A stretch of 64,000 bases of DNA from Planktothrix agardhii NIES-204. GTDB taxonomy: Bacteria; Cyanobacteriota; Cyanobacteriia; Cyanobacteriales; Microcoleaceae. Shown here piece by piece: positions 1-30,900 of the stretch (the stretch's first letter is position 1; each line of letters begins with the position of its first letter). The stretch lies in NCBI GenBank assembly GCA_003609755.1, contig AP017991.1:3769001-3833000 (forward strand), read 5' to 3'. The notes beneath the pieces were generated by a model. It was not told the DNA's origin. It ran no database searches and was given only the letters and a program-made list of their open reading frames with translations. Both the position numbers and the translations under genes were made by a program.

Positions 1-1782
1 TAATTTATTCACATCCACCCCTTCTAATGGCATTTCCTTGGGAAAAATACGACGCCAAATTTCAGCCCGTTGGGTCACATCAGGAAATGGAAACTGCACC
101 ACAAACCGAATTCTTCGCAAAAATGCACTATCTAATGCCCCCTTTAAATTTGTAGTTAAAATTGCTAACCCTCCATAAGCTTCCATCCGTTGTAATAAAT
201 AACTAACCTCAATATTTGCATGGCGGTCATGGGAATCTTTCACATCAGAACGTTTTCCAAATAAAGCATCCGCTTCATCAAAAAGTAAAATCGCTCCACC
301 CGTTTCCGCCGCATCAAAAACCCGTCGCAAATTCTTCTCCGTTTCCCCAATATATTTACTCACCACTGAACTCAGATCAATCCGATATAAATCTAAGTTT
401 AACTCCTGAGCCATCACTTCCGCCGCCGTGGTTTTTCCCGTCCCACTAGGGCCAGCAAATAACGCACTAATTCCTAAACCCCGTCCGCCTTTTTTAGCAA
501 ACCCCCAACCCTCATAAACTTTAACGCGCTGGCGAACATGGGCAATCACCGCTTTCAGAGTTTGTGACTGCATTTCCGGTAATACCAAATCCTCCCAACT
601 GGCACTCGGTTCAATTCGTTGGGCTAAATCTTCCATGCGAGGACGAGCTTGGGCGCGACAAGCCTCCCATAAAGTATTATTTAGCTGATCATAATCCTCA
701 CTTAGCCCGATTTGTCCGAGGGTACTGGCACAAGCCGCAGCAATGGCGGGGGCATTCAGGTTAAATTGTCCGACTAGGTGTTCTATAATCTCCGGCAATT
801 CCTCCCGTTCCATCACCAGCGCCTCCTCCCATAATAGGTATTGTTCTGAGTTTGTAGGTTTGCTAACTTCAAAATTAACTAACGGGCGCTGTCTCTGACT
901 AATCCGATCTCGTGCGGTGATAATCAGAGGACTGTTAATTTGTTCAATGATCTGGGCAACGACATTTCCGTCCCGATCTGAACCGTCTACTTCGTCGCAG
1001 TTCAAGACTAATGCACTATTACACAAAACCGCTTCTCGATCCCACAACCGCAGCAGTTGAGACAGTTCGTTTCTGTTGCTGGGTAAGTGATCGGCACTGA
1101 GTAAATGGGCATCCAGTCCTAATATTTTACAGGCGGATAGGGCGATCGCCCGCTTGCTACTGGTATCTTCTCCACAGAGTTGCACGGCGGGTACAATGTC
1201 ATTTCCGGCACTCTGAGACAGGGTTTCTGCTAACTGTTCGGCTAACTGTTGGTGAGAGGGGACTAATTGATTTTCTTCTTTTAATGGCTCTATTATCCCC
1301 ATCAGTCTCTCATCTAAGTGCTGTACTCCCACCAAATAATGCAGGATGCGCTCGTCAATGCGGAGGGGACTCTGGGTGAGTGCCGATCCACTACCGATCT
1401 CAATTAATCGCCAGTGTCGTAGGGGAGCCGTAGGGGTGAGGGCGTTCCAATGGGGGTTATCCAGGCTACTAAGGGCTAAACTGAAGGTGGGATAAAGTTT
1501 TTGCGAGTCCCCTTGAGCCTGGGCGCACAAGCTGGCAAAACTGGCGTCTAATTCCATACCTGCACAGATCATTAGTAAGTCTCGTTCAAAGGTGGACAAG
1601 CCAAAGATACGGCAGATCTGTTGTAGAGATGAATTATCCGATAGTTCGGAAGTGGCTATTGGCTTTGGAGTTTGACCGTCTTGACTGGCTTTCCATTCCA
1701 GCACCTGTCGCACTTGGGCCAGTGCCACCATCAGGGATTCTTGGTTCGCTTTTTGCCAGTTTTGCACAGAAACAGCGTTCAT
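1..1782 (-). CDS. AAA+ ATPase of contractile injection system (Afp15/Pvc15-like), partial
   Basis: Open for 594 codons from the ATG at 1782 to the left edge, so the C-terminus is missing. The C-terminal ATPase module has Walker A GPSGTGKT at residues 444-451 and Walker B LLFDEAD with D502/E503, followed by a sensor/arginine region (FLRRIRF). The first 400 residues look like a degenerate, ATPase-like N-terminal half, as is usual for the ATPases of eCIS loci. These ATPases are thought to help sheath assembly or recycling, by analogy with ClpV; that role is family knowledge, not visible here. It lies downstream of the Pvc16-like gene on the same strand, with repeats in the 114-bp gap. Homology to Afp15/Pvc15 is inferred from the domain plan and the sheath/tube neighbours. 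The ATPase call itself is secure. Confidence 0.88.
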   Translation of the reverse strand, partial: MNAVSVQNWQKANQESLMVALAQVRQVLEWKASQDGQTPKPIATSELSDNSSLQQICRIFGLSTFERDLLMICAGMELDASFASLCAQAQGDSQKLYPTFSLALSSLDNPHWNALTPTAPLRHWRLIEIGSGSALTQSPLRIDERILHYLVGVQHLDERLMGIIEPLKEENQLVPSHQQLAEQLAETLSQSAGNDIVPAVQLCGEDTSSKRAIALSACKILGLDAHLLSADHLPSNRNELSQLLRLWDREAVLCNSALVLNCDEVDGSDRDGNVVAQIIEQINSPLIITARDRISQRQRPLVNFEVSKPTNSEQYLLWEEALVMEREELPEIIEHLVGQFNLNAPAIAAACASTLGQIGLSEDYDQLNNTLWEACRAQARPRMEDLAQRIEPSASWEDLVLPEMQSQTLKAVIAHVRQRVKVYEGWGFAKKGGRGLGISALFAGPSGTGKTTAAEVMAQELNLDLYRIDLSSVVSKYIGETEKNLRRVFDAAETGGAILLFDEADALFGKRSDVKDSHDRHANIEVSYLLQRMEAYGGLAILTTNLKGALDSAFLRRIRFVVQFPFPDVTQRAEIWRRIFPKEMPLEGVDVNKL

Positions 1783-1797
1783 TTTCAGTAAAAAATT

Positions 1798-1897
1798 GTA
1801 GTAAGTCCTTTAGGACTCTTAACTCGTAGTAAGTCCTTTAGGACTCTTTGCCATATATTGTATATAGGCCCTAAAGAAGCCCTGAAGGGCTTACTAC
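1798..1897. repeat. Dispersed GTAGTAAG palindromes, two direct and one inverted copy
   Basis: Two nearly identical 23-bp copies beginning GTAGTAAGTCCTTTAGGA lie at 1798-1820 and 1826-1848. An inverted relative lies at 1874-1897 (GTAGTAAGCCCTTCAGGG on the minus strand) and touches the stop codon of the upstream gene. Each copy holds a small palindrome (AGTCCTTTAGGACT) that can fold into a hairpin. Related copies occur at 48278-48332. They fill the gap between two same-strand genes and may affect mRNA stability or termination. Confidence 0.8.
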
Positions 1898-3168
1898 TAG
1901 GGGATGGTGATCGTTGGACTAATATACTGATCAAAGGTGGGACTATGGCGATCGCTATCAATTTGACAGAGACTTTCTGCACCATCTACTTGAATCCTCA
2001 CTAAATAGTTGCTATTTTTAATAGCTTTAAGTGAGAAGACAATCCGAGCAGTATTATTATTCCGAGGCTGGGCGTTAAAAATGTAAGAGGCAGGCTGTAG
2101 GCTGGTCTGTTCATTTAAAATCAGAATCACTCGCTGATCTTGACCGATCCTCACATCTGTCACCACTTCTACCTCAGCATCACGAGGCTCGTCGTCTGTT
2201 CCTGACCCATCCAACAGATTCACCTCCTTGATACCAGGTCGCAACACAAACGGAGCCACATTGGACTCAACCCGCTCTTGCATGGGGCCATTAGTGCTTC
2301 CCCTTTCCAACCTTTGACCATGAATTATCTGTAACCCCTGAACCCCGGGTCGGAGTGCCTCTGGTGGCACTAAGGTTAAAGCTAAGGTAATCTCCTGATC
2401 TTGCACCGTACCCGGCGCCACTTCCACACCCCCAATTCTAATCGAGGCATTGGCATTAGCAAGCATTTTACCTCGAATTAATAAGGTACTATGGGTGAAA
2501 ATAGGTTGATATCGACCTTCGGTTGACATGACAAAATCAATCGTCGGTTGTTTGCTAAATGCCCAGGCGTTCAGGCTGCGATCACGGATCGGCAGTGCTA
2601 CCATTGCAGGTTCCTCACCATCTAACACCACAACTGTAATTTTATAAATCACAGATAAAACATAAGGGGTTTGAAAAAAGACCGACCAAACCTTCGATAA
2701 TTCATCCGTTGAAACCGGAACAAATTCCGCTCGGATCATCTCAATTTGTTCCGATAAGTCAGAATTTGCTAAAAAAGGATAACTGGGATCATTCACCGTT
2801 TCTCGAATCATTTGAGAGGATAAAACCGCTCGATCTTCCAGTGTTCGGATTGCACTTCCTAATAAGCGCTGAGGCTCTAATTCGATCTCATTTCCATAAC
2901 AACTTAACAGATAGTATAAATCTATAGGTAATTGATTCCGCTTTGTTAATTCTCCCTTCCTTTGACGGGGTGGCATATCTGCATTCCCTAAAGAGGTATT
3001 GCGCTTCAAATGGTAGAGGTAAATACTAATTCCTGTTTCTGGAGTTCCCCCAGTATTTTCTGGACGGCTTGTTGTCACCCTTGCCCCCTCCACATCCGTC
3101 TGCACAGATTGTTGTAACATCCTCTGCAATGTTGCCGTCACAGTGGCAATACCTAAATAATTACTCAT
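1897..3168 (-). CDS. DUF4255 / Pvc16-like cap (tube terminator) protein of the injection system
   Basis: 423 residues. The N-terminal ~190 residues show the DUF4255 (Pvc16_N) pattern: MSNYLGIATVTATLQRML at the start, a YLYHL segment, PIDLYYLLSCYG, and a conserved FVPVSTDELSKVWS stretch. The C-terminal half is predicted beta-rich and looks like IPT/TIG-type immunoglobulin folds (LLIRGKML..., VEVAPGTV...). In eCIS particles the Pvc16/Afp16 protein caps the tube and stops its growth; I infer the same job here. The stop codon overlaps an inverted repeat copy. It follows the LuxR-type gene by 13 bp and precedes the AAA+ ATPase, so the three probably form one minus-strand operon. Confidence 0.85.
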   Translation of the reverse strand: MSNYLGIATVTATLQRMLQQSVQTDVEGARVTTSRPENTGGTPETGISIYLYHLKRNTSLGNADMPPRQRKGELTKRNQLPIDLYYLLSCYGNEIELEPQRLLGSAIRTLEDRAVLSSQMIRETVNDPSYPFLANSDLSEQIEMIRAEFVPVSTDELSKVWSVFFQTPYVLSVIYKITVVVLDGEEPAMVALPIRDRSLNAWAFSKQPTIDFVMSTEGRYQPIFTHSTLLIRGKMLANANASIRIGGVEVAPGTVQDQEITLALTLVPPEALRPGVQGLQIIHGQRLERGSTNGPMQERVESNVAPFVLRPGIKEVNLLDGSGTDDEPRDAEVEVVTDVRIGQDQRVILILNEQTSLQPASYIFNAQPRNNNTARIVFSLKAIKNSNYLVRIQVDGAESLCQIDSDRHSPTFDQYISPTITIP

Positions 3169-3181
3169 ACTTTAATTAGTT

Positions 3182-3982
3182 TTAAACAAGACCCAGATGT
3201 AACGACCGAACAATCGCTCGACTACGACTATCTACCTCTAATTTTTCAAATATGGTTGTTAAGTGGGCCTTGACTGTTGCTACGGTAATATAAAGGGAAC
3301 TAGCTATTTCTTGATTTCGGTATCCCTCCACCAACAATTTTAAGACTTCCCGTTCTCTATGTGTTAAATTATAGGGATTAGAGCTATTTAATTCCCTCGG
3401 TTGATTAGATGATTTATTGGGTTGAGTGGCTGTTAATTTACCTTGATTTATCTGAAAAGCTCGAAAGAATCTGGCTGCAACTTCTGGACATAAATAAACT
3501 TGATTATTCAGTGCCGCCGTAATAGCAATAAGGAGTTGCGTCGGTAAATTTTCCTTCAATATATATCCCCAAGCTCCAGCTTGCATCGTCTCAAAAATAC
3601 TATTTTCTTCCCCTACAGAAGACAACACTAAAATTTTGCTATCATTCTGATTCTGTTCTGATTTCTGACTTAAACTTCTGATCATTTCAATACCCTGATC
3701 AGGTGTCTTAAATAAATCCCAATCTAGGAAAATTAAACCGGGTTTATATTGGTCAGCCATACTCATGGCAGGTTGAATTGAACTCGTGTTACCAACTAGC
3801 TTAATTTGCCATGACGAACTCAAGTTATAAACCTTAAGTAATACCTGCAAACTCTTGCAAAAAGGCAATTCACTGGCTACAAGCATAACTGCAATTGTTT
3901 TTGGTAAAATGCTCTTAGGTATCTGCCTAGAAACACTTGCTGGCTTTTGATTGGAAGTGTGATTAAGTTGATTTACCCACAT
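3182..3982 (-). CDS. NarL/LuxR-family response regulator, atypical receiver
   Basis: 266 residues. A receiver-like domain spans about 29-165, with the candidate phospho-acceptor D87 in LIFLDWD and the conserved lysine K143 in ILKEN. The acidic pair normally at the end of strand beta-1 is absent: the sequence there is VMLVASE, with no DD. A GerE/LuxR helix-turn-helix lies at about 205-262 (LTHREREVLKLLVEG, ATVKAHLTTIFEKL). It is first in a likely operon with the cap and ATPase genes and is transcribed away from the sheath gene, so it is a good candidate regulator of the locus. The missing acidic residue suggests control that does not depend on normal phosphorylation. Target genes cannot be read from the sequence. 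Confidence 0.87.
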   Translation of the reverse strand: MWVNQLNHTSNQKPASVSRQIPKSILPKTIAVMLVASELPFCKSLQVLLKVYNLSSSWQIKLVGNTSSIQPAMSMADQYKPGLIFLDWDLFKTPDQGIEMIRSLSQKSEQNQNDSKILVLSSVGEENSIFETMQAGAWGYILKENLPTQLLIAITAALNNQVYLCPEVAARFFRAFQINQGKLTATQPNKSSNQPRELNSSNPYNLTHREREVLKLLVEGYRNQEIASSLYITVATVKAHLTTIFEKLEVDSRSRAIVRSLHLGLV

Positions 3983-4396
3983 ATCAAGTCCAATTAAAAC
4001 TAATCTGGTTTTATGCCCCGGAAGGAAGTTTGTGTAATTAACACTATGTTTTAATATAACATCTATCTTCAGATATAAATTTAATTTTGTGACTCAATAC
4101 TCAATACATTTGTATAGAAATCTAACAAATTAATAAGAAAAATAAAGTAATGTTAAATATATCTTGACCAATGGCCGATAATACCCAACATCCAGATAAC
4201 CTTATTCAAAAAGCCCAAAAATTTCGACCAAAGTCTATAACCCCTGGGGTCTATTTCACCTTAATCTAGGCACATTAACGTGCGCGGTGGTATTGCTCCC
4301 CATAGTAAATAGTAATCAGGACAAACCCCATCTTGGCTGCACAGCAAATTGTTGAGCAGCACTCCCAAGCTAAATATTGATATAAGGAAAAGAAAT
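3983..4396. other. Divergent intergenic region between regulator and sheath genes
   Basis: About 410 bp of AT-rich DNA separating the two arms of the injection-system locus. It must carry both promoters, but I see no confident -35/-10 pair. It contains one short open frame (4171-4269) described separately. A Shine-Dalgarno-like TAAGGA at 4383-4388 serves the sheath gene. Confidence 0.5.
4171..4269 (+). CDS. Possible 32-residue ORF upstream of the sheath gene
   Basis: ATG to TAG, 32 residues, beginning MADNTQHPDNLIQ and ending in a PKSITPGVYF... stretch. The TPGVYF part resembles the APGVYVEE start of the sheath protein at 4397, which may mean a decayed second sheath N-terminus or may be chance. 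No clear ribosome binding site precedes the ATG. Low confidence as an expressed gene. Confidence 0.25.
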   Translation: MADNTQHPDNLIQKAQKFRPKSITPGVYFTLI

Positions 4397-6181
4397 ATGG
4401 CAAGACTTGACTATTTTGCTCCAGGTGTGTATGTAGAAGAAGTTGATAGAGGAAGTCGTCCAATAGCAGGAGTCCCCACCGCGATCGCCGGATTTCTCGG
4501 ATTTACCGAAGATGTGCGCGGTGGTGCCGAAATGTTCAAACCCATGTTAGTCACCACTTGGAGCCAATACCTCCAGTATTTTGCCCGCCCCAATTCCGAC
4601 GGCTTCACCGACTTCAACGCCTACCTGCCCTTTTCAGTGTACGGCTGGTTTTTAAACGGTGGCGGCCGTTGTTGGGTCACCAGTATCGGCACCAGATTAC
4701 CAGGTTCTGCCGCCCCAGCACCAACGGAATTAGGCACAGAGGTGATGAACCGCGCCAAACGTCCCGCCCTGCGGTTTTCCCTCAGCGATCCCGGAATTGC
4801 CTCAACCCAGAACATTAACAGTGCTTTGGTATCACCTAGCGAGAGAACCATCCGGGTTAGAATTACCGAAGGACAACCCAAAGCCCCAGCACCCGCCCTA
4901 CCCCCAACCTCCTCAGCAGAGGCAGGTACAGAGGCAACCACAGAGGCAGCTACAGAGGCAAGGGCAATAACTTCTATACCCGCAAACACAGGGGAATACT
5001 TCACCGTTATCATCACCCAAGGTGGCGAGGAACTGGAACGCTACGAACACCTGACCATGAACGCCCAGGCCGATGTCGCCGTAGCAGATTATGTGTTCAA
5101 TGCCCTGCAAGAGTCCAGCTACATTCGGATCACAGACATTTCCCTCACAGGTAGCCCCCTAGCAAAACGCCCCAATAATGGCTTCTATGAAGTCAGTCCC
5201 CCGCCTCTCGACGTTCAGCCCGAACTATTCAGTCAATATGTCGAAGGTGGAAGGGATGATCGCACAGGGGTACGGGGTCTATTTGAAATTGACGACGTGA
5301 CCATTGTTGCCTGTCCCGACTTAATGCGCGTGTACGAAGCCGGATTGATGAATCTCGATCAGCTTCATGGGATCATGGATATGATGCTCAGTCTCAGTGA
5401 AGGTGCGACGGCCGGTGATATCCCCAACCCACCCAACCGGATGGTAATTCTCGATACTCCTCCTGATCGGGTTAAACCCCAAGATGTGGCCCGTTGGCTC
5501 ACCGAAGATTTTAACCGTCGTTCTCAATTTGCGGCCCTCTACTATCCTTGGATCAGAGTTCCCAACCCCCGGAATGCCGGACGTCCGATTTCCATTCCGC
5601 CCTGTGGATATGTTGCAGGCGTCTGGTCACGGGTAGATGAAACCAGAGGCGTCCATAAGGCTCCCGCCAATGAAGTCCCCCGTGGTCTGGTCGGTTTGAG
5701 TTATGACTGTAACTTCCGTGAACAGGAATTATTAAACCCCTTGGGAATTAACTGTGTCCGTAGTTTCCCCAACCGTGGTCTACGGATTTGGGGGGCCCGT
5801 ACCCTGGTGGAAGCGGATAATATTCAATGGCGTTATATTAACGTCCGTCGCTTGATGAGCTACATTGAGAAATCCATTGAACAGGGAACCCAGTGGGTCG
5901 TTTTTGAACCCAACGATGAAGACCTCTGGCAACGGGTTAAACGCACTCTCGGTAATTTCCTCGACTCCCTCTGGCGCGAAGGTGCCCTAGTGGGCGGTAG
6001 TCCGGCTCAAGCCTACTATGTCAAGTGTGACGAAGAAATTAATACCCCACAAACGATGCTCCTAGGTCGTTTGTATGTTGAAGTCGGCGTAGCCCCCGTC
6101 CGTCCTGCTGAATTTGTGATCTTCCGCATGAGTCAGATCACTGGTGATGAAAACGAAGAAGAAGGCGGCGAATTCAGTTAA
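4397..6181 (+). CDS. Contractile injection system tail sheath protein
   Basis: 594 residues from the ATG at 4397, chosen over an upstream in-frame TTG at 4349 because TAAGGA sits 8-14 bases before it and the protein then begins MARLDYFAPGVYVEE, the standard start of phage and eCIS sheath proteins. The C-terminal half carries the conserved sheath domain (AGVWSRVDETRGVHKAPANE; then NIQWRYINVRRLMSYIEKSI near the end). A variable Ala/Pro/Thr/Glu-rich loop lies at about residues 165-190 (repeats of EA-TEA), probably surface exposed. The sheath contracts to drive the inner tube through a membrane. First gene of the plus-strand arm, followed by the tube gene. Confidence 0.95.
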   Translation: MARLDYFAPGVYVEEVDRGSRPIAGVPTAIAGFLGFTEDVRGGAEMFKPMLVTTWSQYLQYFARPNSDGFTDFNAYLPFSVYGWFLNGGGRCWVTSIGTRLPGSAAPAPTELGTEVMNRAKRPALRFSLSDPGIASTQNINSALVSPSERTIRVRITEGQPKAPAPALPPTSSAEAGTEATTEAATEARAITSIPANTGEYFTVIITQGGEELERYEHLTMNAQADVAVADYVFNALQESSYIRITDISLTGSPLAKRPNNGFYEVSPPPLDVQPELFSQYVEGGRDDRTGVRGLFEIDDVTIVACPDLMRVYEAGLMNLDQLHGIMDMMLSLSEGATAGDIPNPPNRMVILDTPPDRVKPQDVARWLTEDFNRRSQFAALYYPWIRVPNPRNAGRPISIPPCGYVAGVWSRVDETRGVHKAPANEVPRGLVGLSYDCNFREQELLNPLGINCVRSFPNRGLRIWGARTLVEADNIQWRYINVRRLMSYIEKSIEQGTQWVVFEPNDEDLWQRVKRTLGNFLDSLWREGALVGGSPAQAYYVKCDEEINTPQTMLLGRLYVEVGVAPVRPAEFVIFRMSQITGDENEEEGGEFS

Positions 6182-6257
6182 ATACAAGCCCGGTTTGGGG
6201 TTTAGGGTTTCAGGTATTAAGGTTAATCAACAGCATTACTGCATAGTAATTATTTTC

Positions 6258-6322
6258 CCCCATTCCCCATTACCCATTACCCATTACCCATTACCCATTA
6301 CCCATTCCCCATTCCCCATTCC
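6258..6322. repeat. Heptameric short tandem repeats (ATTACCC / ATTCCCC)
   Basis: Tandem heptamers of the form CCCATTA and CCCCATT fill the gap between the sheath and first tube genes. They match the short tandemly repeated repetitive (STRR) class known from filamentous cyanobacteria. No spacers of constant size are present, so this is not a CRISPR array. Confidence 0.85.
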
Positions 6323-6360
6323 TAATTTCCCCACTAAAAACTTACAAAAGGAATAAAAAC

Positions 6361-6882
6361 ATGGTCGGAGTTGTTACTACTGTTGCCTCTCGATTTTACG
6401 TTGAGTTTGACGGAATTACTCAGGCTCAAATCAAAAGTATGGCTCAAATTTCCTATGAAGGTAAAGTTACAGGAAATGCCAAACCCATAGGTTCATCAAA
6501 AGGCGGAATTCATGACCGACAAACCACCTCCGGCGGTTACGATTCTAACCCCGCCATGACCGTTGAAGTTTACCTGTGCGATTCCCCCCAAGGTGCCAGC
6601 GCCCAAATGTACAAATGGTTTCAAAAATGCTTACCCGTTAGTGAGGGCGGTAACGGTGACTGGTCAAATAACCGTAAAAGTGGCTCAGTTGTTGTTTATG
6701 ACCCCAACGGTCGGGAAATCCTCCGATGGAATTTAGAACGCGCTTGGCCGAAAAAATACTCCATTGCCGATGCGGACGTCACAGGTCAAGATCTAGCAGT
6801 AGAAACCTATGAACTGGTGGCTGAACGAATTAATAAAGTCAAATCCGTCAGTGGTGCCGCCGTTACTTATGGTGGTCGATGA
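6361..6882 (+). CDS. Inner tube protein (T4 gp19-like), copy 1
   Basis: 173 residues; ATG preceded by AAAAGGAAT. The fold pattern is that of phage T4-like tail tube proteins: N-terminal TVASRFYVEFDGI, a central KPIGSSKGG loop, then EILRWNLERAWPKKY and TGQDLAVETYELV. It would polymerise as hexameric rings inside the sheath. It lies directly downstream of the sheath, the usual eCIS order. It shares the RFYVE and R-W/F-N-x-K/E...P-x-K/S-Y signatures with the next two genes and so belongs to a triplet of paralogues. Confidence 0.92.
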   Translation: MVGVVTTVASRFYVEFDGITQAQIKSMAQISYEGKVTGNAKPIGSSKGGIHDRQTTSGGYDSNPAMTVEVYLCDSPQGASAQMYKWFQKCLPVSEGGNGDWSNNRKSGSVVVYDPNGREILRWNLERAWPKKYSIADADVTGQDLAVETYELVAERINKVKSVSGAAVTYGGR

Positions 6883-6892
6883 CATATAATCA

Positions 6893-7002
6893 ACTACGAA
6901 TTACGAATTACGAATTACGAGACAATTAGCTAACTCCTAATTTATTAATCCATTAACTCCTAATTCATTAATTCGTAATTGATAATTCGTAATTCGTAAT
7001 TG
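6893..7002. repeat. Large inverted repeat of ATTACGA heptamers between tube genes
   Basis: Left arm at 6893-6922 is made of repeated ACGAATT units and right arm at 6971-7002 of the complementary AATTCGT units, about 50 bp apart. In RNA this would form a long AU-rich stem-loop between the first and second tube genes. It could dampen or stabilise expression of one of them. The same heptamer occurs at 18395-18417. Confidence 0.7.
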
Positions 7003-7091
7003 ACAACATACCCCCCGATAAATCGGCGGACATGAGCGACACTAAGTTAAAACAAAATCAATCTAACTATTGACCAGGAGGAATATTTAAA

Positions 7092-7601
7092 ATGACAGCA
7101 GCAACTCAGAGAAGCCTAATGGAATACCTGACAGTTTCTCGCTTTTACTTAGAAATTAATAATAATACAAGGTTACTGATTTCCAAAGCTAGTGGACTTT
7201 CAATTACAATTGATCCGGCTTCTGAAGGTAAGCCCATCGGAACCCGTAAGGGCTTGGCTACGGATACACAAACCACCCCGGCTACCGTCAGTTATCAAAA
7301 TATTACCCTGGAGTTTGTAACAGCAATTGACAACGATATTCTCTTGCAATGGTATGTGGATTCACACCCGCAAGCAATGGGAAAAGGCGGTCGGCAAACC
7401 ATGGCTCGGCGTTATGAAGCTTCCCTGGTTTTCTACAAACAAGATGGTTCAGAAGGCGCCCGATGGAATATTAAAGATGCCATTCCCGCTAAATACAAAA
7501 CTACTCAAGTCAAAGCTGACAGTGCCGATATTTTTAAAGAAACCATTGAGGTTGCCCACGCCGGGATGATTCGGGTTCCTGTTGGGGGAAGCAAGCTTTA
7601 A
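7092..7601 (+). CDS. Tube-type tail protein (gp19-like), copy 2
   Basis: 169 residues; ATG preceded by a strong CAGGAGGAAT site at 7076-7085. Begins MTAATQRSLMEYLTVSRFYLE and carries KPIGTRKG, EGARWNIKDAIPAKY and a C-terminal EVAHAGMIRV, all matching the tube fold of the first copy. In eCIS operons extra tube-like proteins usually act as the initiator or baseplate-proximal rings (the Afp5 role). Which ring it forms cannot be told from sequence alone. Confidence 0.9.
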   Translation: MTAATQRSLMEYLTVSRFYLEINNNTRLLISKASGLSITIDPASEGKPIGTRKGLATDTQTTPATVSYQNITLEFVTAIDNDILLQWYVDSHPQAMGKGGRQTMARRYEASLVFYKQDGSEGARWNIKDAIPAKYKTTQVKADSADIFKETIEVAHAGMIRVPVGGSKL

Positions 7602-7620
7602 GAAGGTGTTGAGGGTTGGC

Positions 7621-7757
7621 GGGTAATGGGTAATGGGTAATGGGTAAAGATATTCTCTATTGCTATTACCTATTGCCCATTCCCTGTCTTTCTCCCATTG
7701 CCCATTGCCTATTCCCTGTCTTTCTCCCATTGCCTATTGCCTATTGCCTATTCCCTA
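7621..7757. repeat. Short tandem repeats upstream of third tube gene
   Basis: GGGTAAT heptamers at 7621-7646 are followed by CCCATTGCC and CCCTGTCTTTCTC units up to 7757. The sequence is open in frame with the downstream gene, which makes a spurious 22-residue N-terminal extension possible in automatic annotation. Confidence 0.8.
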
Positions 7758-7763
7758 TTTGGT

Positions 7764-8288
7764 ATGCAAATTAATCAAGACCAATTAAAACAAAATTTAT
7801 CAGAGATTCTTACCATTGCTCGCTTTTATGTTGAGTTAAAACTAAATGGAAGTAGCGATCCTGTTGATGCTTATTTTATGGAATGCAAAGGGTTTAAATA
7901 TACCCAAAGTTTAATAGAATTAGCTGAAGTTTTTCCCCAACCTTGGGGGAAAGCTAAACGGGGACGAGTCCTCAGAACAAAAATGCCGGGAAATGAAAAA
8001 GTTAATAATATTAATTTGCGTCGCGGTCTAAGTGCATCAACTACCCTATGGAAGTGGATTGAAAATGTGCAAGCAGGTCAATGGGCAACTCAAAGTTATG
8101 ATGGTTCCTTAGTCATCTATCGCCAAAGTAGTGAAGAAGGTGCTCGGTTTAATTTTAAAGGTGCTTGGCCTGTTTCCTACACCGTTGCTGATAACATTGT
8201 TTCTGGTTCAGATCTCGCTTTTGAGGAACTAGAATTAGCAGTAGAAAGCTTTCAGCGAGTTCCTACCCTTCCTAAATCCTTGTCATGA
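7764..8288 (+). CDS. Tube-type tail protein (gp19-like), copy 3
   Basis: 174 residues from ATG 7764. An upstream in-frame start at 7698 was rejected because it would translate the tandem repeats. There is no clear Shine-Dalgarno site, so expression may be weak or coupled. Motifs include ILTIARFYVEL, ARFNFKGAWPVSY and SGSDLAFEELELAVE, matching the tube family. It differs from copies 1 and 2 by an insertion after the first strands (FPQPWGKAKRGRVLRTKMPG), consistent with a special ring position near the baseplate. Its stop overlaps the next ATG (ATGA), showing coupling. Confidence 0.87.
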   Translation: MQINQDQLKQNLSEILTIARFYVELKLNGSSDPVDAYFMECKGFKYTQSLIELAEVFPQPWGKAKRGRVLRTKMPGNEKVNNINLRRGLSASTTLWKWIENVQAGQWATQSYDGSLVIYRQSSEEGARFNFKGAWPVSYTVADNIVSGSDLAFEELELAVESFQRVPTLPKSLS

Positions 8289-8623
8289 TCCAAACTGAAT
8301 TTGAGTTTACCCTACCCAAAGGATACCTAGATGAACAAGGCGACTGTCACCGTCAAGGTGTAATGCGACTATCCCGGGCTATTGATGAAATTGTTCCCAT
8401 GCGTGATCCTAGAGTTAAATCAAATCCAGCCTATGCTACTGTAATTATTCTCTGTCGTGTTATTACTCAGTTAGGCACTTTAGAAGAAATTTCACCCATG
8501 GTAATTGAAAATCTATTTGCCTCCGATTTAAGCTATTTACAAAAGTTTTATCGCTACATCAATGACTTAGAGGAAGACCAACCCGACTCTCCCACCCCAT
8601 CCCCAGTTTATGATCAACCCTGA
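8285..8623 (+). CDS. Phage-tail-assembly-type small protein, copy 1
   Basis: 112 residues, start overlapping the previous stop by 4 bases. Pattern F-x-LPKGYLDEQGDCHRQGVMRLSRAIDEI, then NPAYATVIILCRVITQLG and a C-terminal LQKFYRYIN. This resembles the small tail-assembly proteins placed after tube genes in phages and eCIS loci. It may be a chaperone or baseplate adaptor. The last 15 residues are Pro-rich and probably disordered. Confidence 0.75.
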   Translation: MIQTEFEFTLPKGYLDEQGDCHRQGVMRLSRAIDEIVPMRDPRVKSNPAYATVIILCRVITQLGTLEEISPMVIENLFASDLSYLQKFYRYINDLEEDQPDSPTPSPVYDQP

Positions 8624-8637
8624 ATTAACGATGTTTG

Positions 8638-8961
8638 ATGGAAAACCAATCTCCAATCACCTTTAGTTTTTCCCTACCCGTCGGGTTACTAGACAACCAA
8701 GACAGACGACACCGGGACGGGGAAATGCGTCTAGCCACAGGTAAAGATGAATTGTACCAGACCGACCCCCGCAGCTTGGAAAATCCAGCCTATGGGACTC
8801 TGATCCTACTTTCGCGGGTTATTGTCCAGTTAGGGGAATTATCCCCCGTCACCCCAGAAGATTTAGAAGCACTGTTTCTCACGGACTGGCAATATTTACA
8901 GGAAGTTTACAACGCCATTAACCCCCCAGAATCAACAATTTCTACCACGGGGGAGTTATAG
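8638..8961 (+). CDS. Phage-tail-assembly-type small protein, copy 2
   Basis: 107 residues from ATG 8638 (a TTG codon just before it is also possible). It is a clear paralogue of the preceding gene: FSLPVGLLDNQDRRHRDGEMRL, NPAYGTLILLSRVIVQLG and LQEVYNAIN align with it along the whole length. Duplication of this small gene in tandem implies two versions of one assembly or adaptor function. Its stop codon TAG overlaps the presumed start of the next small gene. Confidence 0.75.
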   Translation: MENQSPITFSFSLPVGLLDNQDRRHRDGEMRLATGKDELYQTDPRSLENPAYGTLILLSRVIVQLGELSPVTPEDLEALFLTDWQYLQEVYNAINPPESTISTTGEL

Positions 8962-9104
8962 GCTACCCCCAAGAGGAGTTATATCGGGAGGTAGCCTTTA
9001 TTGCATTTCACTTTCACTGGTCACGGGAAGAAATTCTGAATTTAGATCATCGAGAACGACAACGTTGGGTTCAGGAAATTGCCTATTTAGTTAATACAGA
9101 TTAA
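8958..9104 (+). CDS. DUF6760-like small eCIS protein, apparently non-ATG start
   Basis: A 47-codon segment after the start codon reads GYPQEELYREVAFIAFHFHW, then SREEILNLDHRERQRWVQEI, matching my memory of the DUF6760 family in cyanobacterial and actinobacterial eCIS loci. No ATG, GTG or TTG lies in frame between the TAA at 8919 and the conserved region. The best candidate start is ATA at 8958: it overlaps the upstream TAG and follows a strong GGGGGAG motif at 8949-8955. Alternatives are ATC at 8931 or a sequencing error in the G run. The family call is good; the start is uncertain. Confidence 0.72.
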   Translation: MGYPQEELYREVAFIAFHFHWSREEILNLDHRERQRWVQEIAYLVNTD

Positions 9105-23670: not shown

Positions 23671-26600
23671 CTAATATTCAATTTTGATAGCGTCATATTC
23701 TTGTTCAGTTAATGCAAATTCCGGGTCTATTATTTTTACTTCTTGATATGTTAGTTCGTAAAGTTTATAAACTAAATTATCTATTTTTTGTTCTAATTCT
23801 GATACATCTGCCTTAACATCTTTTTTCTTTTTTTTCAATATCTCATCTACTAATTTTATTACTGGTTGTTGATAATTACCAAAGTTTTTTGGAATAGGAA
23901 AAGTAGCTAACTCATTAACTTTAAATTGAGGAAATATCCCTCTTTGTAGTTTACCAAACTTATGAGCAAACCAATAAGATATTAATTTACTGTTGAAAAT
24001 TCCTAAAATTAACATCGGATTTTCTTGAAGATTAATAATATTCATTGAGTTTCTATCATTTAAAATAATTTCTTGAGTAAAACAAGCATTGATAGAATAG
24101 GGTAAAGGGGAAGGTATTTGTCTGACTAAAATTCGAGGAGTCGAAAATAAAGAAAAATCTTTTCTTGGAGAAGCTAAGTTATCACCATATTTTAAATATT
24201 CGCCACTCCAGCCTAAATAATAACGACAAACATCTTTACCATCTAAATATTTAATATAATCATCATTGATTTTAGTGGTACTATGATAAACTCTATTTTC
24301 TTTGATTTCTTCTGTTTGTGGAGGGTTCCCTTTTCCTCTTTCATAAGCTTGTAAACCTGCTTTAACATCAGCAATTGTTTTTATTTGAATTGATTGTAAT
24401 TCAATTTTTTCTAATAAACTAAGTGATTCAGTATTCTTAAAAGCTTCAATATTAATAATATAATCTTTTTGCTGTAAAAAATAATTAGTTTTTGTTTCAA
24501 AAATAGAATAAAAATTATCTGTATATTCAAATAATTCAATAGATTTATTTTGTTGAGATTTTTCAAACAGTATAATTGAACTATCTACATCAGCACTTTC
24601 AAAAACCTTAGCATAAAAGTTGACTATTTTTATATGAGAATTATCTAAAATAAATTTTCTTAAGTTTTTATTACTACTAATAGTTAGCCAGTTATTCGGT
24701 GTTATATAATCAAGTAAACCTTTATTTTTCAAAAGATTGTACCCTTTCTCAATAAACAAAGGATATAAATTAAGTTGATATTCTGTGACTTGATAGTGCT
24801 TTGGATAATATTCTTTATCAGCTTGAGTTATCCCTTTACTTTTGCTATCTCTAGCGAATACATAAGGAGGATTTCCAATCACAATATCAAAACCCATAGA
24901 AGAATTTTGTTGTATCTCTATTTCTAAAAGTTGTTGTTTAATAATTACAATTTGACTTTGAACAATATTAGCCTGTAAATGACATAAATGAATATTAATA
25001 TTATGTTGACTTAAATGTAAATTAATAGCATCAATTTGAGCATTTAAAGCATTAATTTGTTTATTAGTAGTGACTACTTCTGGACTATCTTTATCTCCTG
25101 CAAATAAATAGGGATTCATCACCTCTGGAAAATCTAATTTCCAATCAAAGAAATGAAGCGGTAACTCTGGTTTAGTTTTCAGTTTATTTAATTGAGTAAT
25201 AGTATTTTTCCAACCAATAGTTTGTAAATATATTTCAGTTTGCTTAGTTAATGTTTTACCTGTGCTAGTCGGTTTAGTTTCCATACCTTTACTTTTAACC
25301 ATTAACTCCAGTTGGCTTATCAGCAAATCAATTTTTAGATTGCGTATATCAGCAGATAGTTTTTTCTTATCACTATCAGGACTAAAAAACTCTTTTTGTT
25401 CTTGACTTATTTGTTTTAATATTTCTTCAGGCTTGAAAACATCAACAAAAATATTTCCTTGTTTACTACCTTTCATTTCCCAATCAATATCAATAATATC
25501 ATCCCCCAACTTACTCACCAAACTATTACCCACCACAATCTTATAATCCAGATTAGGTAAAGCTTTCGGTTCAGGTTCATCTACAATTAAACTCAGCCAG
25601 AAACGCAGTCTAGCAATATCCACCGCCCCCCGTTCAATATCTACACCATAAATACTATTTTGAATAATATTTAGTTTCACACCCGAAGCATTAAAATTAG
25701 TTGTGTTGCCAAATTCAAAAATATGCAGTGTTTGTTTAGCCGTAAATATTTCGTGCAATAAACCCATCGGAAAAGCCCCCGAACCAATCGCCGGATCACA
25801 AATTTTCACCCTATCTAAAGCCTGATTAAATTCAGCAGAATACTGTTTTATTAACTTCTGATCCTGATCATCTAAATTCTTTTTAAGCAACTTCTCAATT
25901 AATATCCGGTCTATTTGTTTAGATTCAGATTCGACTATAATTTCTAACTCTAATTGTCCTTGTCTTCCTTGATTTACAGGAAATAATTCCAGTTGTTCAG
26001 GATTCCCAATACTGGTATAACTAATAATATTATAACCATGGCTTTCAAACCAAGTAGTTAAGTATTCAATTAAACTTTCCTGACACATATAATGGACAAT
26101 CTCTTTAGGCGTATAATATGCGCCTTTATCTTTATTATCTTCTAGTAAGTTCTCAAAAATATGTCCCAACATTTCAGGGTCAACCGCCACAGTATGATCA
26201 TTTGGATCATCTTCATAAATGGTAAAATTATATTGATCAAAAAAGTTAAAAAGATTTTTAAATAATGTTGCAGTAAAAATTAAGTTACGATGATTCTTAT
26301 TTTCTTCTTCAAATAAACCACCATTCAAAAAAGGGATTCTGCAAGGTTTACCTGCTACCAATTCAATTAAATCATTCGGGCGTTTGGTGTTGAGGGTATC
26401 AAAAAATAATACTGATAAAAAATCTTGATAAAAAAGTTCTGGATGGGGAAAACTTTTAAACTGATTAGTTAAAAAGTTATGATCACCTTTTCCCCAAGTT
26501 TCATTTTTTGGCACACCCAACCAGCCTTTTTTCTGGATGAAATATAAAAACACAATCCGCCCTAATAATTTCTTATTAAAATCACGGATAGCTTTTTCGT

Positions 26601-27237
26601 CACCATTAAAAATCGTTTGACTAATTCCTGGTTGTGAAACCATATATTGACAAAAAATATCATAATGTTTTTTATATTCATCAAAAAACGTCTTAGAAAG
26701 TTTCTCGACTGAGAAAGCTTCTTTCACATCATCTAAAGTGACTTTACTCCCTTTTTTAAGAATACGTTCAAACCGTTCAACGGCCGTTCTTATGCTTTCA
26801 CTTTCACCCAATAAATAGGTGTAGCGTTTAGGTTCAGTTTTGATTTTTATAAATTCGCCTTCTGCATCATAGCCCGTTAATTCCGAAACATAAGTAAAAC
26901 GCCAATTGGCACTTTCTGGACGATGATAAGCAATAAAAGCCGCATCAATATTTTGCCAATATTTACGCAATAAATTTCTTAATCCTACCCGATTACGTTC
27001 TAAAATAATACCCGGTGCCAGCGTTACTTCATACACCCCAATTTGTCGCTCAATCCCATTTTCATCTAATATAATATAGCCTAACTTTTGCGCCTGAGCA
27101 GCTACATGATTATCAATACCCGTAAGAGTTTCGGGAGTTGATAATAACTGAGCATTAGCAAAAGTTTTGCCTAGAAATTGTTTCCATTTATCTTGATTGT
27201 AACGTTGGTTGAATATATCTTTAATTTGTTGTGTCAT
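23671..27237 (-). CDS. Eco57I-type DNA adenine methyltransferase / restriction-modification protein
   Basis: 1188 residues. The SAM-binding motif I is DPAIGSGAFPMGLL near residue 479 and the catalytic motif IV is GNPPYVFA near residue 788, placing it with N6-adenine methylases. Family features include AYYTPKEIVHYMCQESL, with the phrase YTPKEIV, and a C-terminal target-recognition-like region ending near 1150. The first ~400 residues resemble the N-terminal part of type IIG/Eco57I enzymes; I cannot see a PD-ExK nuclease motif with confidence. Together with the PLD-helicase upstream it probably forms a restriction or other anti-phage system. The DNA is clearly more AT-rich than flanking genes, suggesting horizontal gain. 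Confidence 0.85.
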   Translation of the reverse strand: MTQQIKDIFNQRYNQDKWKQFLGKTFANAQLLSTPETLTGIDNHVAAQAQKLGYIILDENGIERQIGVYEVTLAPGIILERNRVGLRNLLRKYWQNIDAAFIAYHRPESANWRFTYVSELTGYDAEGEFIKIKTEPKRYTYLLGESESIRTAVERFERILKKGSKVTLDDVKEAFSVEKLSKTFFDEYKKHYDIFCQYMVSQPGISQTIFNGDEKAIRDFNKKLLGRIVFLYFIQKKGWLGVPKNETWGKGDHNFLTNQFKSFPHPELFYQDFLSVLFFDTLNTKRPNDLIELVAGKPCRIPFLNGGLFEEENKNHRNLIFTATLFKNLFNFFDQYNFTIYEDDPNDHTVAVDPEMLGHIFENLLEDNKDKGAYYTPKEIVHYMCQESLIEYLTTWFESHGYNIISYTSIGNPEQLELFPVNQGRQGQLELEIIVESESKQIDRILIEKLLKKNLDDQDQKLIKQYSAEFNQALDRVKICDPAIGSGAFPMGLLHEIFTAKQTLHIFEFGNTTNFNASGVKLNIIQNSIYGVDIERGAVDIARLRFWLSLIVDEPEPKALPNLDYKIVVGNSLVSKLGDDIIDIDWEMKGSKQGNIFVDVFKPEEILKQISQEQKEFFSPDSDKKKLSADIRNLKIDLLISQLELMVKSKGMETKPTSTGKTLTKQTEIYLQTIGWKNTITQLNKLKTKPELPLHFFDWKLDFPEVMNPYLFAGDKDSPEVVTTNKQINALNAQIDAINLHLSQHNINIHLCHLQANIVQSQIVIIKQQLLEIEIQQNSSMGFDIVIGNPPYVFARDSKSKGITQADKEYYPKHYQVTEYQLNLYPLFIEKGYNLLKNKGLLDYITPNNWLTISSNKNLRKFILDNSHIKIVNFYAKVFESADVDSSIILFEKSQQNKSIELFEYTDNFYSIFETKTNYFLQQKDYIINIEAFKNTESLSLLEKIELQSIQIKTIADVKAGLQAYERGKGNPPQTEEIKENRVYHSTTKINDDYIKYLDGKDVCRYYLGWSGEYLKYGDNLASPRKDFSLFSTPRILVRQIPSPLPYSINACFTQEIILNDRNSMNIINLQENPMLILGIFNSKLISYWFAHKFGKLQRGIFPQFKVNELATFPIPKNFGNYQQPVIKLVDEILKKKKKDVKADVSELEQKIDNLVYKLYELTYQEVKIIDPEFALTEQEYDAIKIEY

Positions 27238-27282
27238 AATTTTTTCAAGGGAATGGGGAATAGCAAATGGGCAAATAGCACC

Positions 27283-27702
27283 CTACTGCTGAAATAGGTT
27301 TTGGAATGGTTCTGTATTCTTCCAGCGATAGGTATTGAAGTCTCGATAATCAACGGAAAGAATCCGACCGTGACCAAGTTCTTCAGCCAGAATGACTAGG
27401 GAAGCATCGGCTAAATCCATTGGTAAATCTCTATATTTCTGCATTAGTTGTTCGATACGCAAACAATGACTTTGATTGAGGTCAAATACTTGAAATATTT
27501 CCGTATAAATTTTGCGAATAAACAGTTTTGGAGCATCTATACCTACTCTTTTTTGTAGTAGATAACAGGTTTCCGTAACTACACACCAAGTTGTGATAAA
27601 TTTCTCGTTTTCTAATTTCTGAAATAGGGTTTTTGCGGCTGGATGGGCGGAATCATTTTTATTAGCAAGAGTCAGCCAGAAACCTGTATCAACGATGATC
27701 AT
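27283..27702 (-). CDS. PIN-domain toxin-like RNase (VapC-type)
   Basis: 139 residues from ATG 27702 (ATG 27720 adds six residues). The PIN signature is present: MIIVDTGFWLTLANKND at the N-terminus with the first acidic residue, VVTETCYLL with the second, and LADASLVILAEELG followed by LSVDYRDF with the last acidic residues. The gene overlaps the upstream antitoxin-like gene by 14 bases or more, the usual coupling for VapBC pairs. It sits between the helicase and methylase genes of a defence-like island and could guard that system or be an independent cargo. Confidence 0.83.
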   Translation of the reverse strand: MIIVDTGFWLTLANKNDSAHPAAKTLFQKLENEKFITTWCVVTETCYLLQKRVGIDAPKLFIRKIYTEIFQVFDLNQSHCLRIEQLMQKYRDLPMDLADASLVILAEELGHGRILSVDYRDFNTYRWKNTEPFQNLFQQ

Positions 27703-27931
27703 ATTTTTCCTCAAGTTCATTACTCAAATAGGTTTTATAATTTCTCGCTAAGTCGGGTTCTGCTTCTATACAACCGATGAAGTCTGACCAGTCTTGAGTT
27801 TTGCTTTCTGGAATTTCTGGCTGGTTCGGGAAGTAACTTTTTTTGAGGACACAGACAAGTTCAAAGATAACTTGTTGTGCATCGGGGGGAAGGGATGCTA
27901 TGTCTTGCTGAATGGTATCTAGGTTAATCAT
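27689..27931 (-). CDS. Antitoxin-like protein partner of the PIN toxin
   Basis: 80 residues from ATG 27931; an upstream ATG at 27976 would overlap the helicase stop and add 15 Asn/Lys-rich residues. The segment INLDTIQQDIASLPPDAQQV resembles the DUF2281-type small antitoxins found beside PIN toxins in cyanobacteria. The C-terminal half is acidic (DWSDFIGCIEAEPDL). Its 3' end overlaps the toxin gene. Assignment rests mainly on size, overlap and the toxin partner. Confidence 0.68.
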   Translation of the reverse strand: MINLDTIQQDIASLPPDAQQVIFELVCVLKKSYFPNQPEIPESKTQDWSDFIGCIEAEPDLARNYKTYLSNELEEKYDHR

Positions 27932-27968
27932 ATTTTTTAATTTTCTCTTATTATTGGTTGTATCACAA

Positions 27969-30900
27969 TTATTCAAAAGATTCTGAAATAATTAAAACTG
28001 GTTTCTCAACTTTTCTCTTTTGTCCTTTTTGGATATCCGAGAAATTAACACTATATCGTTCAGCAATTTTATCAATTTCTAAAATCGCCGTATCTAAGTT
28101 TACTTTTTTCTTTTGCAGCTTGTCAACCTCCGAAGGCAAATTAGTATATTTCCCTATATCAATCAGGTTGATAATTTTCTTAATATTATCCCTTTGTTTC
28201 TCCGTTAATTTGGGATGGTTAATCATTCCTGAAAGCCATTTTTTTGCACTTTGCGCCACACCGCCTAATGCTTCCGGGTCTGTTTGCGCCTGAACTAACT
28301 CATATTCAAGTGTTTCAAAATGTTTAATTGCGTTGTTTACATGGTCGTGATGACTGGGGATTAATTTTGCATTTTTTTCGTTTTGATTAGCTTCAAATAT
28401 CTTAAATGCTTCAATGGGTGTAATTTCTCTGGGTTGGTTGTTGCTATCCACCCAATAAAATTCAAACTTTTTATCTGTCTTTAAAAATGCCGCCGTGCCA
28501 TTTTGTAAATCAGGTTTATTAATTTTAGTTGAACTTCTTCCCACCCTTGATTTTAAAGGCATTTTTTTGATTTTATCAAACCAAGTTTTGTTATTTTTCC
28601 TGAAATTGCGTAGGAAGTAAAGAAACTTTAAGCGCTCATCTTGTTCCTCCTTATAAGTTCCACTAAAAAGTTTAACTTCATCTAAAATTTCATCGGTTGA
28701 AAACACTTGATTATCCTCCCCAAATGCGGTATGAAAAGCCTGAATTTTCATAAAAGCAGTTTTATTTAACTGAATTTGCGAATCTCCTTGGGCCGAAGGA
28801 TAAAAAACATAATTATAAATAGCATTTGCTTTAGTACCAATCCGATTCACCCGCCCAATTCTTTGCATCAATTTGGTTGAGTTCCAAGGTGTATCATAGT
28901 GGATAATGACATTAGAACGATGCAAATTTACTCCTTCTGCTAAAACCTCAGTAGTAATAATTATACTGTAATTGTTTACCTGTTTTTCTTCCGCCCAGTT
29001 AGCATCAAAGTTAGTTACTATGGTATCATACAATTGATTTCTATTTTTACTAGAAACTACTAATACATCTTTTCTACCTCTATTTTGTAAAGCCTCGGCT
29101 AAATAATTAACGGTATCTTTTGACTCCGAAAATATTACTAATTTACCTTCTAAATTTGTTTTTTTATCAAGAAATAGTTTATTTAATTGTTCAATAAACA
29201 CATCCAATTTTGGATCGTTTTCTATAGCATTCCAATTTTTAACCAATTCCTTTAAAAGTCGAGAATCATTCTCTAAATTTTCAATAAAATCTGGCTTAAA
29301 ATCAGCTTTTTTAAAAGTTTGGTTTTTCGGATTATCCGCGCTTAGTTTTTCTATTTCCTCCTCAATTTGTTCATCACTCCAACCCTTATCTAACAGCTTG
29401 TTTATATTAGTATCCGGTGCGATAAATATTTTGTCATTAGCAAACATTTCAATCATTCTATCGGTGGCTTGTTGAAAATTGCTTAGGGATTTTTTAAAGG
29501 CATAAAAACTACTTTCTAATCTTTTAATTAACTGAGTTTTCATAATAAATGCTAAGGATTTAGAAACTGTTTCTGCGTTCCCGTAATACTTGCTTTGAAT
29601 TTCTGGGTTTAATCCGGCAATGGCTTGATAACGGCTGTATTTTAGTTGAGCTTTATCCGTCAGACAAATAACAGTTTTATGAAACAACTGATTTAGTTTT
29701 TCATCCATTATATATTCGACTTTTTTAGGTGGTTCTACTTTTGGGAAGTTGATTTCTTGTGCTATTAAGTCTAATTTATATTCAGCAATATTTTCCAGGT
29801 CAGTTCGTGTTCTCCGAATAGTAATAGGTTCAATTACATTTTTACGAATTTTCCCATAAATATCTCTAAGCTTATTTACATCTAATTCTTCAAAGCGTTT
29901 TAGGCTTTTGTATTGCTCCATTAAGGGACTAAAAAAAGCAGTCAAATTTGTCATAGGAAGTGTTGACTGTCTAGCATCCTGAAACATTTGTATTTGATAA
30001 AAAATATCATCGGGTCTGTTATTCAAAGGTGTTGCAGATACTAAAATTACTTTTTTCTGACTACCTTTGATTAAACCTTCCTGATTGGCTCTGGGGCTTT
30101 TGCAAATTAATTGTAAGTTTTGAAAAGCACCTGTTTTGTGATTGCGAAACTTGTGCGCTTCATCCGCTATCACTAAATCATATTCTTCTTTTTTCCAATA
30201 GTCTTGATGGGGTTCCAATATTTTTTCCAGGCTTCCATTCGTGATAAATTTGGTATATTTGTCAATATTAAAATTCTTAAAAGTGTCTTTCCAGTTTTTT
30301 TCAACTGCTGGCGGATAAACAACTAATATTTTTGTATTGTCTCTACCATTTTGGATTAAAAACTTTTTGGCAACCATGGCTGCAATAACAGTTTTACCTA
30401 ATCCCACAACATCAGCTAAGATAAAGCCGTTGTGTTTTAGCAGCATATTAAAGCCTTCATTTACGGCATCAATTTGATAAGAAAGTTTTTTAAAGTTTTG
30501 AGGTAAATCACCTATTGAGTCTGGGTCATAATCAATATTTTTGTCAAAATATTCAGTCAGCAATTTTATATATAATTCAAAGGTACTGGTTTCTTCATTC
30601 AAATAAGTTTCTTTTTTGATACCCTGAATATCAACTGGCAATATATCAACAGATTCAGCCCAAAGTTTTTCAAATTCTGCGGTCGCAAATTGCACATCAG
30701 GATATTCTGTTAGTTGAACATTGAACTCATAATTATAAAAGTTTCCTCCACCCAGTCCCGCATCGGTAAGATTTGAAGAACCCGTGATTACTGTGGCTGG
30801 TGTATGTTGATTAAATGGTTCAGGACGTAAAATATAAACTTTAGCGTGGATTTTTTTTTCGGGATGGGCTTTTACTTGTATTTTTTTTTGAATTATATCG

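Follow-up and report, generated by a model that had tools for sequence, protein, structure and literature searches.

Subtype IId of the contractile injection systems (CIS) is reported to include those of Streptomyces and Chloroflexota (PMC12998442), and its member from S. coelicolor (CIS-Sc) has been solved structurally (8bky/8bl4 and 9gtp/9gtr/9gts; PMC10066040, PMC12237407). Firing of CIS-Sc is described as requiring CisA, a protein with a cytoplasmic N-terminus, a transmembrane (TM) segment and a periplasmic domain that is compared to substrate-binding domains (PMC12237407); the same paper gives CisA for 75 of 120 IId genomes, so CisA does not define the subtype. In Anabaena, by the account of Weiss et al. 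(PMC8894136), thylakoid anchoring of a CIS is linked to a TM helix in Cis13, an extension of Cis12 (C-terminal, residues 610-1,100) and the crown protein Cis19. Here we analysed a window of 64,000 nucleotides from the filamentous cyanobacterium Planktothrix agardhii NIES-204 (contig AP017991.1, here C1, positions 3,769,001-3,833,000), the left end of which carries sheath, tube, cap and ATPase genes of a CIS. The window probably, though by no means certainly, holds the engine half (half A) of a single IId CIS from a rearranged island, and the product would be a cytoplasmic syringe whose firing is triggered at a membrane.

Comparison with solved structures showed that the sheath is closest to that of CIS-Sc (8bky, 3.2e-111; Anabaena All3325, 1.5e-52), as is the spike (9gtr, 5.1e-40; Anabaena All3320, 1.5e-23), and that Cis12 matched only 9gtp_E (7.9e-6). 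Tube protein C also found its best solved match in the S. coelicolor tube (8bl4_v, 8.9e-8), whereas tube protein D matched 7adz (5.5e-16), which we take to be an AlgoCIS-type tube, and the Anabaena tube 7b5h (1.5e-15) slightly ahead of 9gtp_a of S. coelicolor (9.4e-11). A midpoint-rooted sheath tree with long branches was computed from 60 of 91 sheaths, Streptomyces being thinned to one in four. The result showed that the 29 cyanobacterial sheaths of this type form one group (100/100), with two Chloroflexi sheaths as the nearest outgroup (98/98) and the actinobacterial sheaths outside. Sheath and spike are thus nearest to IId members, and the CIS of the window appears to belong to the Streptomyces-like subtype IId, a label that we infer from the published descriptions.

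The resemblance to CIS-Sc extends to a junction between a tail chaperone and DUF6760, which is present in the genus Streptomyces, and to a membrane protein with an extracytoplasmic domain encoded close to the baseplate genes. However, CIS-Sc has CisA, of which no homologue was found here by hhalign, and it is described as having no tape-measure gene (PMC12237407, PMC10066040), whereas Planktothrix has a repeat protein in that slot. Compared with CIS-Sc, the Planktothrix Cis12 also has an immunoglobulin (Ig)-like N-terminal extension, and the genes p444, dCache, WD40, p849 and p800 are added. The Chloroflexota CIS (Roseiflexus clade, IId) supply the nearest outgroup sheaths and, in one locus (L192), a p444-like gene after Cis12, but the downstream genes, as far as they are described, are other than those in Planktothrix. 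Many cyanobacteria also carry a CIS of another type, in which the sheath is shorter (391-519 amino acids (aa), 13 fetched) and the spike homologue was matched in two pieces. The label 'tCIS-type', tried for these 13 sheaths, was dropped as wrong, since the three that were checked match Streptomyces or 9ezm best and not Anabaena.

Searches of the whole NIES-204 genome (G000; 5.08 Mb, five contigs, 99.99% complete) returned one sheath, one gp25 and four gp19 tube proteins. Three of the tube proteins are encoded in the window and one, tube D, in a distant half B; this tube protein and gp25 lie at C1:117-136 kb, 1.1 Mb from the window if the 4.78-Mb contig C1 is circular and 3.7 Mb otherwise. The initial annotation had described a CIS half-locus with its own regulator in the left 9.1 kb, without baseplate genes in the window, and had placed these genes to the left or elsewhere. 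All the genes it named are where it put them, the sole gp25 gene of the genome lies at C1:117,357-117,620, and the second half is on the same contig. Half B, which was read from C1:97-177 kb and annotated by Pfam, is on the minus strand and in transcription order comprises eCIS_core effectors, a YbjN-like protein, p800, an 83-aa protein, tube D (PF06841, 8e-40), a 4,848-aa protein, Cis7 (CIS_tube, 1.8e-16), the spike (Phage_base_V, 6e-25), gp25 (4.3e-21), a 736-aa Baseplate_J wedge, Cis12, p444, a dCache-HAMP protein, a WD40 protein, p849 and a TPR protein. The Cis12 homologue (Tail_P2_I, 340 aa) and the Cis13-like p444 match CIS12_fam (6.9e-13) and CIS13_fam (1.3e-9) of NCBIfam, both below the curated cut-off. 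Sheath, tube, spike, gp25, wedge, cap and AAA+ ATPase, the parts that mark a CIS, are therefore found within one genome. Anchor and cargo, which the initial annotation had not seen, are indeed missing from the window, but anchor candidates and cargo genes are present at half B: there are four effectors, of 765, 993, 2,330 and 852 aa, the second of which carries Ntox11 (3.1e-26). At L173:6222-8780 and in L010, the eCIS_core effectors have long acidic tandem repeats (for example IVQRSEEEEEPQAKLESG and DISSIQRQEGEEEE) at their start, ahead of the core domain. An open reading frame (ORF) adjoining half B was considered as a transposase and rejected, its Pfam match being a response regulator.

The co-occurrence of sheath and spike was surveyed in 291 genomes of the order, G000 included, with limits set at gaps in the score lists (sheath, at least 408 bits, next 265; spike, at least 317 bits, next 171); the weaker matches are other CIS types. 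A sheath of the present type was found in 78 genomes and a spike in 74, with both in 72, the sheath alone in six and the spike alone in two. Sheath and spike share a contig in 33 of the 72, at 3-94 kb in 27 and more than 350 kb apart in six, three of them Planktothrix; in the other 39 they are on different contigs, which has little meaning in draft genomes. Four of ten Planktothrix genomes have both genes and six have neither, one of the six being only 73% complete. In P. paucivesiculata PCC 9631 (G297, locus L012) the whole cluster is continuous over about 60 kb, and runs from a first flank gene through AAA+ ATPase, cap, regulator, sheath, tubes, chaperones, effectors, p800 (within a longer merged ORF), tube D, the protein occupying the slot before Cis7, Cis7, spike, gp25, wedge, Cis12, p444, dCache, WD40, p849 and TPR to a second flank gene. 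The flank genes, which we take to be Ffh-like and TldD-like, are 63 kb apart in this strain, and in G000 the first adjoins half A and the second half B. Their distance was compared in five of the six CIS-less Planktothrix genomes, the incomplete one being left out: they are 3.5 kb (G255), 4.5 kb (G140) and 3.0 kb (G075) apart in three, and on separate contigs in two (G239, G269).

The contiguity in G297 together with the close flank genes in CIS-less relatives implies that the island was acquired or lost as a whole and was later cut. Judged from gene content, co-inheritance and order, the two halves very probably form one system, and the split appears to be a young chromosomal rearrangement of a contiguous island, an ordinary event and no new architecture. 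The split locus of the initial annotation is thus real for this strain but does not stand as an architecture, since the genes are contiguous in the sister species. The position of the cut varies, lying between chaperones a and b in G234 and after DUF6760 in G000 and G126, and in G234 a DDE_3/HTH_32 transposase pair is located about 8 kb from one cut end. In G126, a strain like P. rubescens PCC 7821, a DDE transposase ORF (DDE_5, 5.7e-40; L092:13203-14468) lies inside the slot gene, and in G297 the effector stretch contains a similar ORF.

To judge from the reading frames at the junction, chaperone b is probably extended into DUF6760 by a programmed -1 frameshift. The DUF6760 frame in the window contains no ATG, GTG or TTG across 14 open upstream codons, and chaperone b ends in ACG GGG GAG TTA TAG (8947-8961). 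The junction was surveyed in 53 distinct DUF6760 loci, 50 of which have a scorable chaperone stop, with eight other CIS genes as the control. The results showed that DUF6760 is in the -1 frame to the chaperone in 50 of 50 loci, and that at least five G in the last 24 nucleotides before the chaperone stop are found in 45 of the 50, compared with 11 of 492 control gene ends; the five loci without a G run are from actinobacteria outside Streptomyces (L040, L042, L045, L047, L048). As actinobacterial loci, mostly near copies, make up 36 of the 50, more weight is due to the 17 cyanobacterial and Chloroflexi loci. The G run occurs in sixteen of these, with GGGAAAG in the remaining one (L107); every one of the 17 reads GG in the -1 frame at the slip site and, shortly after, YP (GYP in 13, SYP in three, RYP in one), and in four a stop lies in the -1 frame no more than 12 codons upstream of YP. 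A possible start for the extension is absent in the window and in 12 of the 17. Elsewhere, in 20 other CIS ORFs of G000, Gly-Glu is encoded as NNG GGG GAR in four of 38 cases.

Several observations speak against a frameshift at every locus. A possible upstream start in the -1 frame exists in five of the 17 loci (L017, L044, L098, L107, L109), several of the 17 have a possible start shortly inside the DUF6760 extension, and in the Streptomyces copies a GTG overlaps the chaperone stop, so that independent or coupled DUF6760 starts are possible there. The closest described case is gpG/gpGT of phage lambda, a small tail chaperone beside the tube genes with a -1 shift near its end (PMC5009743), and GGGGGAA is a slip motif observed in phages (PMC10885494). 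The arrangement here shares with lambda the position of the putative shift, close to the stop of a small chaperone gene adjoining tube genes, and the relative L107 carries GGGAAAG at the slip position. It differs in its candidate slip motif (GGGGGAR), in its extension (DUF6760) and in belonging to a non-phage machine.

In G000 the slot that separates tube D from Cis7 is occupied by a 4,848-aa ORF with 160 anchored repeat units, spaced by 25 aa in 129 of 159 cases, by 35 aa in 29 and by 50 aa in one. The repeat core is PEIPVSTLQKQ and the composition is rich in P, S, I and T. Across 34 loci with both neighbours the slot ranges from 204 to 14,596 bp; the repeat protein itself is 124 to 4,848 aa long. 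Given this range and the very short versions, a plain linear ruler is doubtful. Many slot proteins have a common N-terminal PLG-type stretch and a C-terminal end of the LAREIY...RQRLEIERER type, with lineage-specific repeats between. Compared with 200 shuffles, the motif [ILVM]Q[RK][QELKP] was more frequent than in any of them in 11 of 30 slot proteins and not in the other 19. Among 431 control ORFs unlabelled as slot or effector this was so in four, all of them in slot positions and simply lacking the label; among the effectors of G000 two exceed the shuffles (the 993-aa one and a 658-aa reading) and two do not. Tape-measure-like effectors are known from Streptomyces (PMC13277306), and the slot protein may be a ruler, a cargo or a scaffold. 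In a more specific version, which we regard as unlikely, it would be a tandem-repeat, probably disordered scaffold or tape measure whose length is set by repeat number, to which chaperones a, b and b-DUF6760 bind repeatedly, with a motif of the I/L-Q-R/K type loading effectors and the kinase-like-TM-PBP protein licensing firing. If this were true, particle length would be a fast-evolving trait. With a helix rise of 0.15 nm per residue, a helical scaffold would further give particles of about 0.7 micrometre in this strain.

Half B encodes several membrane proteins. The 800-aa p800 has a weak N-terminal kinase match (NF033483, 0.0061) with HGN in place of HRD, presumably the corresponding kinase motif, one TM-like segment as read from the sequence, and a C-terminal PBP_like_2 domain (8.1e-13); it is like S. 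coelicolor CisA in architecture only. In both the WD40 protein and p849, a TM-like segment separates the Ig-like N-domains from the C-terminal part, with a peak hydropathy of at least 1.8 in 19 of the 20 WD40 homologues listed (G136 being the exception) and in all eight p849 homologues of at least 590 aa. Their N-domains are mutually related (97%), and the N-terminal extension of Cis12 is related to both (91% and 88%, against no more than 4.2% in six controls). WD40 follows the Cis13-like gene, directly or behind dCache, in 16 of 24 loci. Together with dCache-HAMP, which has two TM segments, p800, the WD40 protein (Ig-TM-WD40) and p849 (Ig-TM-Ig) are candidate firing sensors, with a putative docking role.

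On these grounds we propose that the two halves, expressed from separate places, would build one cytoplasmic syringe. Chaperones a and b and the b-DUF6760 product, made by a -1 shift as lambda gpGT is made from gpG, would help to load the tube proteins and the slot repeat protein. An extracytoplasmic stress or ligand may be detected by the membrane proteins of half B, which would then permit the baseplate to fire, perhaps via the Ig-like extension of Cis12; firing would free the eCIS_core effectors and kill or remodel the producing cell, in the manner of CisA-dependent firing in Streptomyces. For the step of membrane-triggered firing within the cell we put the chance at slightly below even. 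A number of points weigh against this proposal. The 4,848-aa slot protein has no Pfam match, and hhalign gave only 0.1-0.8% for p800, WD40, p849 and dCache against four candidates from Streptomyces loci, so that a CisA homologue in Planktothrix was rejected. With whole Cis12 in place of its N-domain the Ig match falls to 55% and 66%, and Ig-like folds are common. Moreover, the gene next after the Cis13-like one is dCache-HAMP in just 12 of 24 loci, and plasma and thylakoid membranes are indistinguishable from sequence.

The initial annotation suggested that the system could be thylakoid-anchored as in Anabaena (all3313-all3327), where the particle, fixed in thylakoid stacks through Cis13 and Cis12 extensions, becomes exposed in ghost cells. 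The host is a filamentous cyanobacterium, both systems have eCIS_core (DUF4157) effectors and a Cis13-family gene, and the operon's membrane proteins could serve as thylakoid anchors. However, sheath and spike are distant from those of Anabaena and far nearer to Streptomyces, no TM segment reached the threshold in p444 of G000 (hydropathy peak 1.37; some relatives peak at up to 2.2 near residue 430, and G242 at 3.4 at the extreme N-terminus), and the 340-aa Cis12 homologue lacks the long C-terminal extension. Thylakoid-anchored membership was accordingly rejected on the two features of Cis13 TM helix and Cis12 extension; with sheath, spike and Cis12 all Streptomyces-like and the Cis13-like protein without the helix, this reading is unsupported, and we consider it quite improbable.

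Somewhat better placed, but still improbable, is an extracellular CIS, whose particles are freed by lysis and whose eCIS_core effectors are used on other organisms. The effectors, with Ntox11 on one of them, and a Cis13-like gene in the tail-fibre position are in keeping with it, and cyanobacterial CIS are reported from Lake Zurich water (PMC8894136); the lineage, however, is that of the cytoplasmic Streptomyces CIS, and the operon holds sensor-like membrane genes. Least probable of all is that the rearrangement broke the cluster and both halves are being lost as a decaying remnant. The six CIS-less Planktothrix genomes and the transposase-interrupted slot gene of G126 would fit decay, but in G000 neither half has a broken core ORF, the slot ORF is open over all its codons with a dN/dS of about 0.42 among its (non-independent) repeat units, and three split strains keep both halves. 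A phage to the left, which would have contradicted the initial annotation, was not seen in the 20 kb read there. No capsid or terminase gene was recognised by eye among the ORFs of the 20 kb to the left and of the G297 block; three of the left ORFs were profiled, and no dedicated search was made.

The regulator of half A is of the REC-LuxR type. Cluster-associated regulators are also described in Streptomyces, namely the cluster-specific SlpR of S. lividans (PMC13277306) and the putative regulator sco4263 (PMC10020575). In the receiver domain of the Planktothrix protein the acidic pair is lost and a phospho-acceptor-like Asp is kept. A scan of 43 loci turned up homologues at 13 places, of which four are Planktothrix records (two of these the same place). 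Among the nine others the acidic pair is kept in six and partly in L021; it is lost in L016 and in L096 (G125), whose sheath is the closest outside the genus, as in Planktothrix. Phosphorylation control of the Planktothrix regulator is doubtful. The features of half A are listed below. The AAA+ gene extends past the left window edge to a full length of 653 aa, the start of chaperone b is TTG 8635 or, likelier, ATG 8638, and Pfam Phage_TAC_7 matched chaperone b weakly (0.0085) and chaperone a not at all. NCBIfam gave no match for the sheath, cap, chaperones, DUF6760 frame or WD40 protein.

Table 1. Features of the engine half (half A), in window positions
Feature	Position	Strand	Evidence or remark
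AAA+ ATPase, Cis15-like	1..1782	-	PF00004 7.8e-27, PF22977 6.2e-20
Cap / tail terminator, Cis16-like, 423 aa	1897..3168	-	Pvc16_N 7e-44
REC-LuxR regulator	3182..3982	-	GerE 1.4e-17, Response_reg 9.4e-11
Divergent regulator/sheath intergenic region, 414 bp	3983..4396		promoters presumed
Contractile sheath, Cis2, 594 aa counted from ATG	4397..6181	+	PF17482 2e-20; 8bky 3.2e-111
Tube-type protein A, gp19 family	6361..6882	+	PF06841 7.2e-18
Tube-type protein B, gp19 family	7092..7601	+	PF06841 3.5e-18
Tube-type protein C, gp19 family	7770..8288	+	PF06841 1.9e-23 (longer start used)
Tail assembly chaperone a	8285..8623	+	phrog_508 2.6e-5 (PHROGs)
Tail assembly chaperone b	8635..8961	+	phrog_508 8.5e-7 (PHROGs)
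Candidate -1 slip site GGGGGAG	8949..8955	+	codons ACG GGG GAG TTA TAG
DUF6760 frame, -1 relative to chaperone b	8964..9104	+	PF20546 4.7e-15

Some further features of the window were noted. A 32-codon ATG frame (MADNTQHPDNLIQKAQKF...) lies at 4171-4269 (+) within the regulator-sheath intergenic region, and a 32-bp tandem repeat of 2.7 copies (7665-7749) directly precedes tube C. The gene to the right of DUF6760 is GST-like. A low-GC stretch (0.29-0.34 between 24 and 32 kb) coincides with a probable defence island (23671-31244), which holds a type IIG restriction-methylation protein (PADLOC, 5.2e-106) and a PLD/SNF2-helicase protein (C3a139 HKD+Snf2, 7.5e-39; DrmD-like, 7.5e-36).

In the open-licence literature, no paper was found that pairs Planktothrix with contractile injection, no CIS title was among the matches listed for IQRQ, neither WD40 nor pseudokinase occurred in the matches listed for CIS terms, and the papers found on contractile injection and ribosomal frameshifting concern phage tails, as judged by title. 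The frameshift signature, the variable repeat slot protein and the candidate firing sensors are new here. The bloom-forming lake genus Planktothrix gains a complete and testable CIS of the Streptomyces-like lineage, and the genes of a large machine are seen to be able to separate on the chromosome with both parts still kept. A length ruler in IId CIS and a lambda-type frameshift in IId tail chaperones become testable, and candidate sensors are named for how an intracellular CIS may receive its firing signal.

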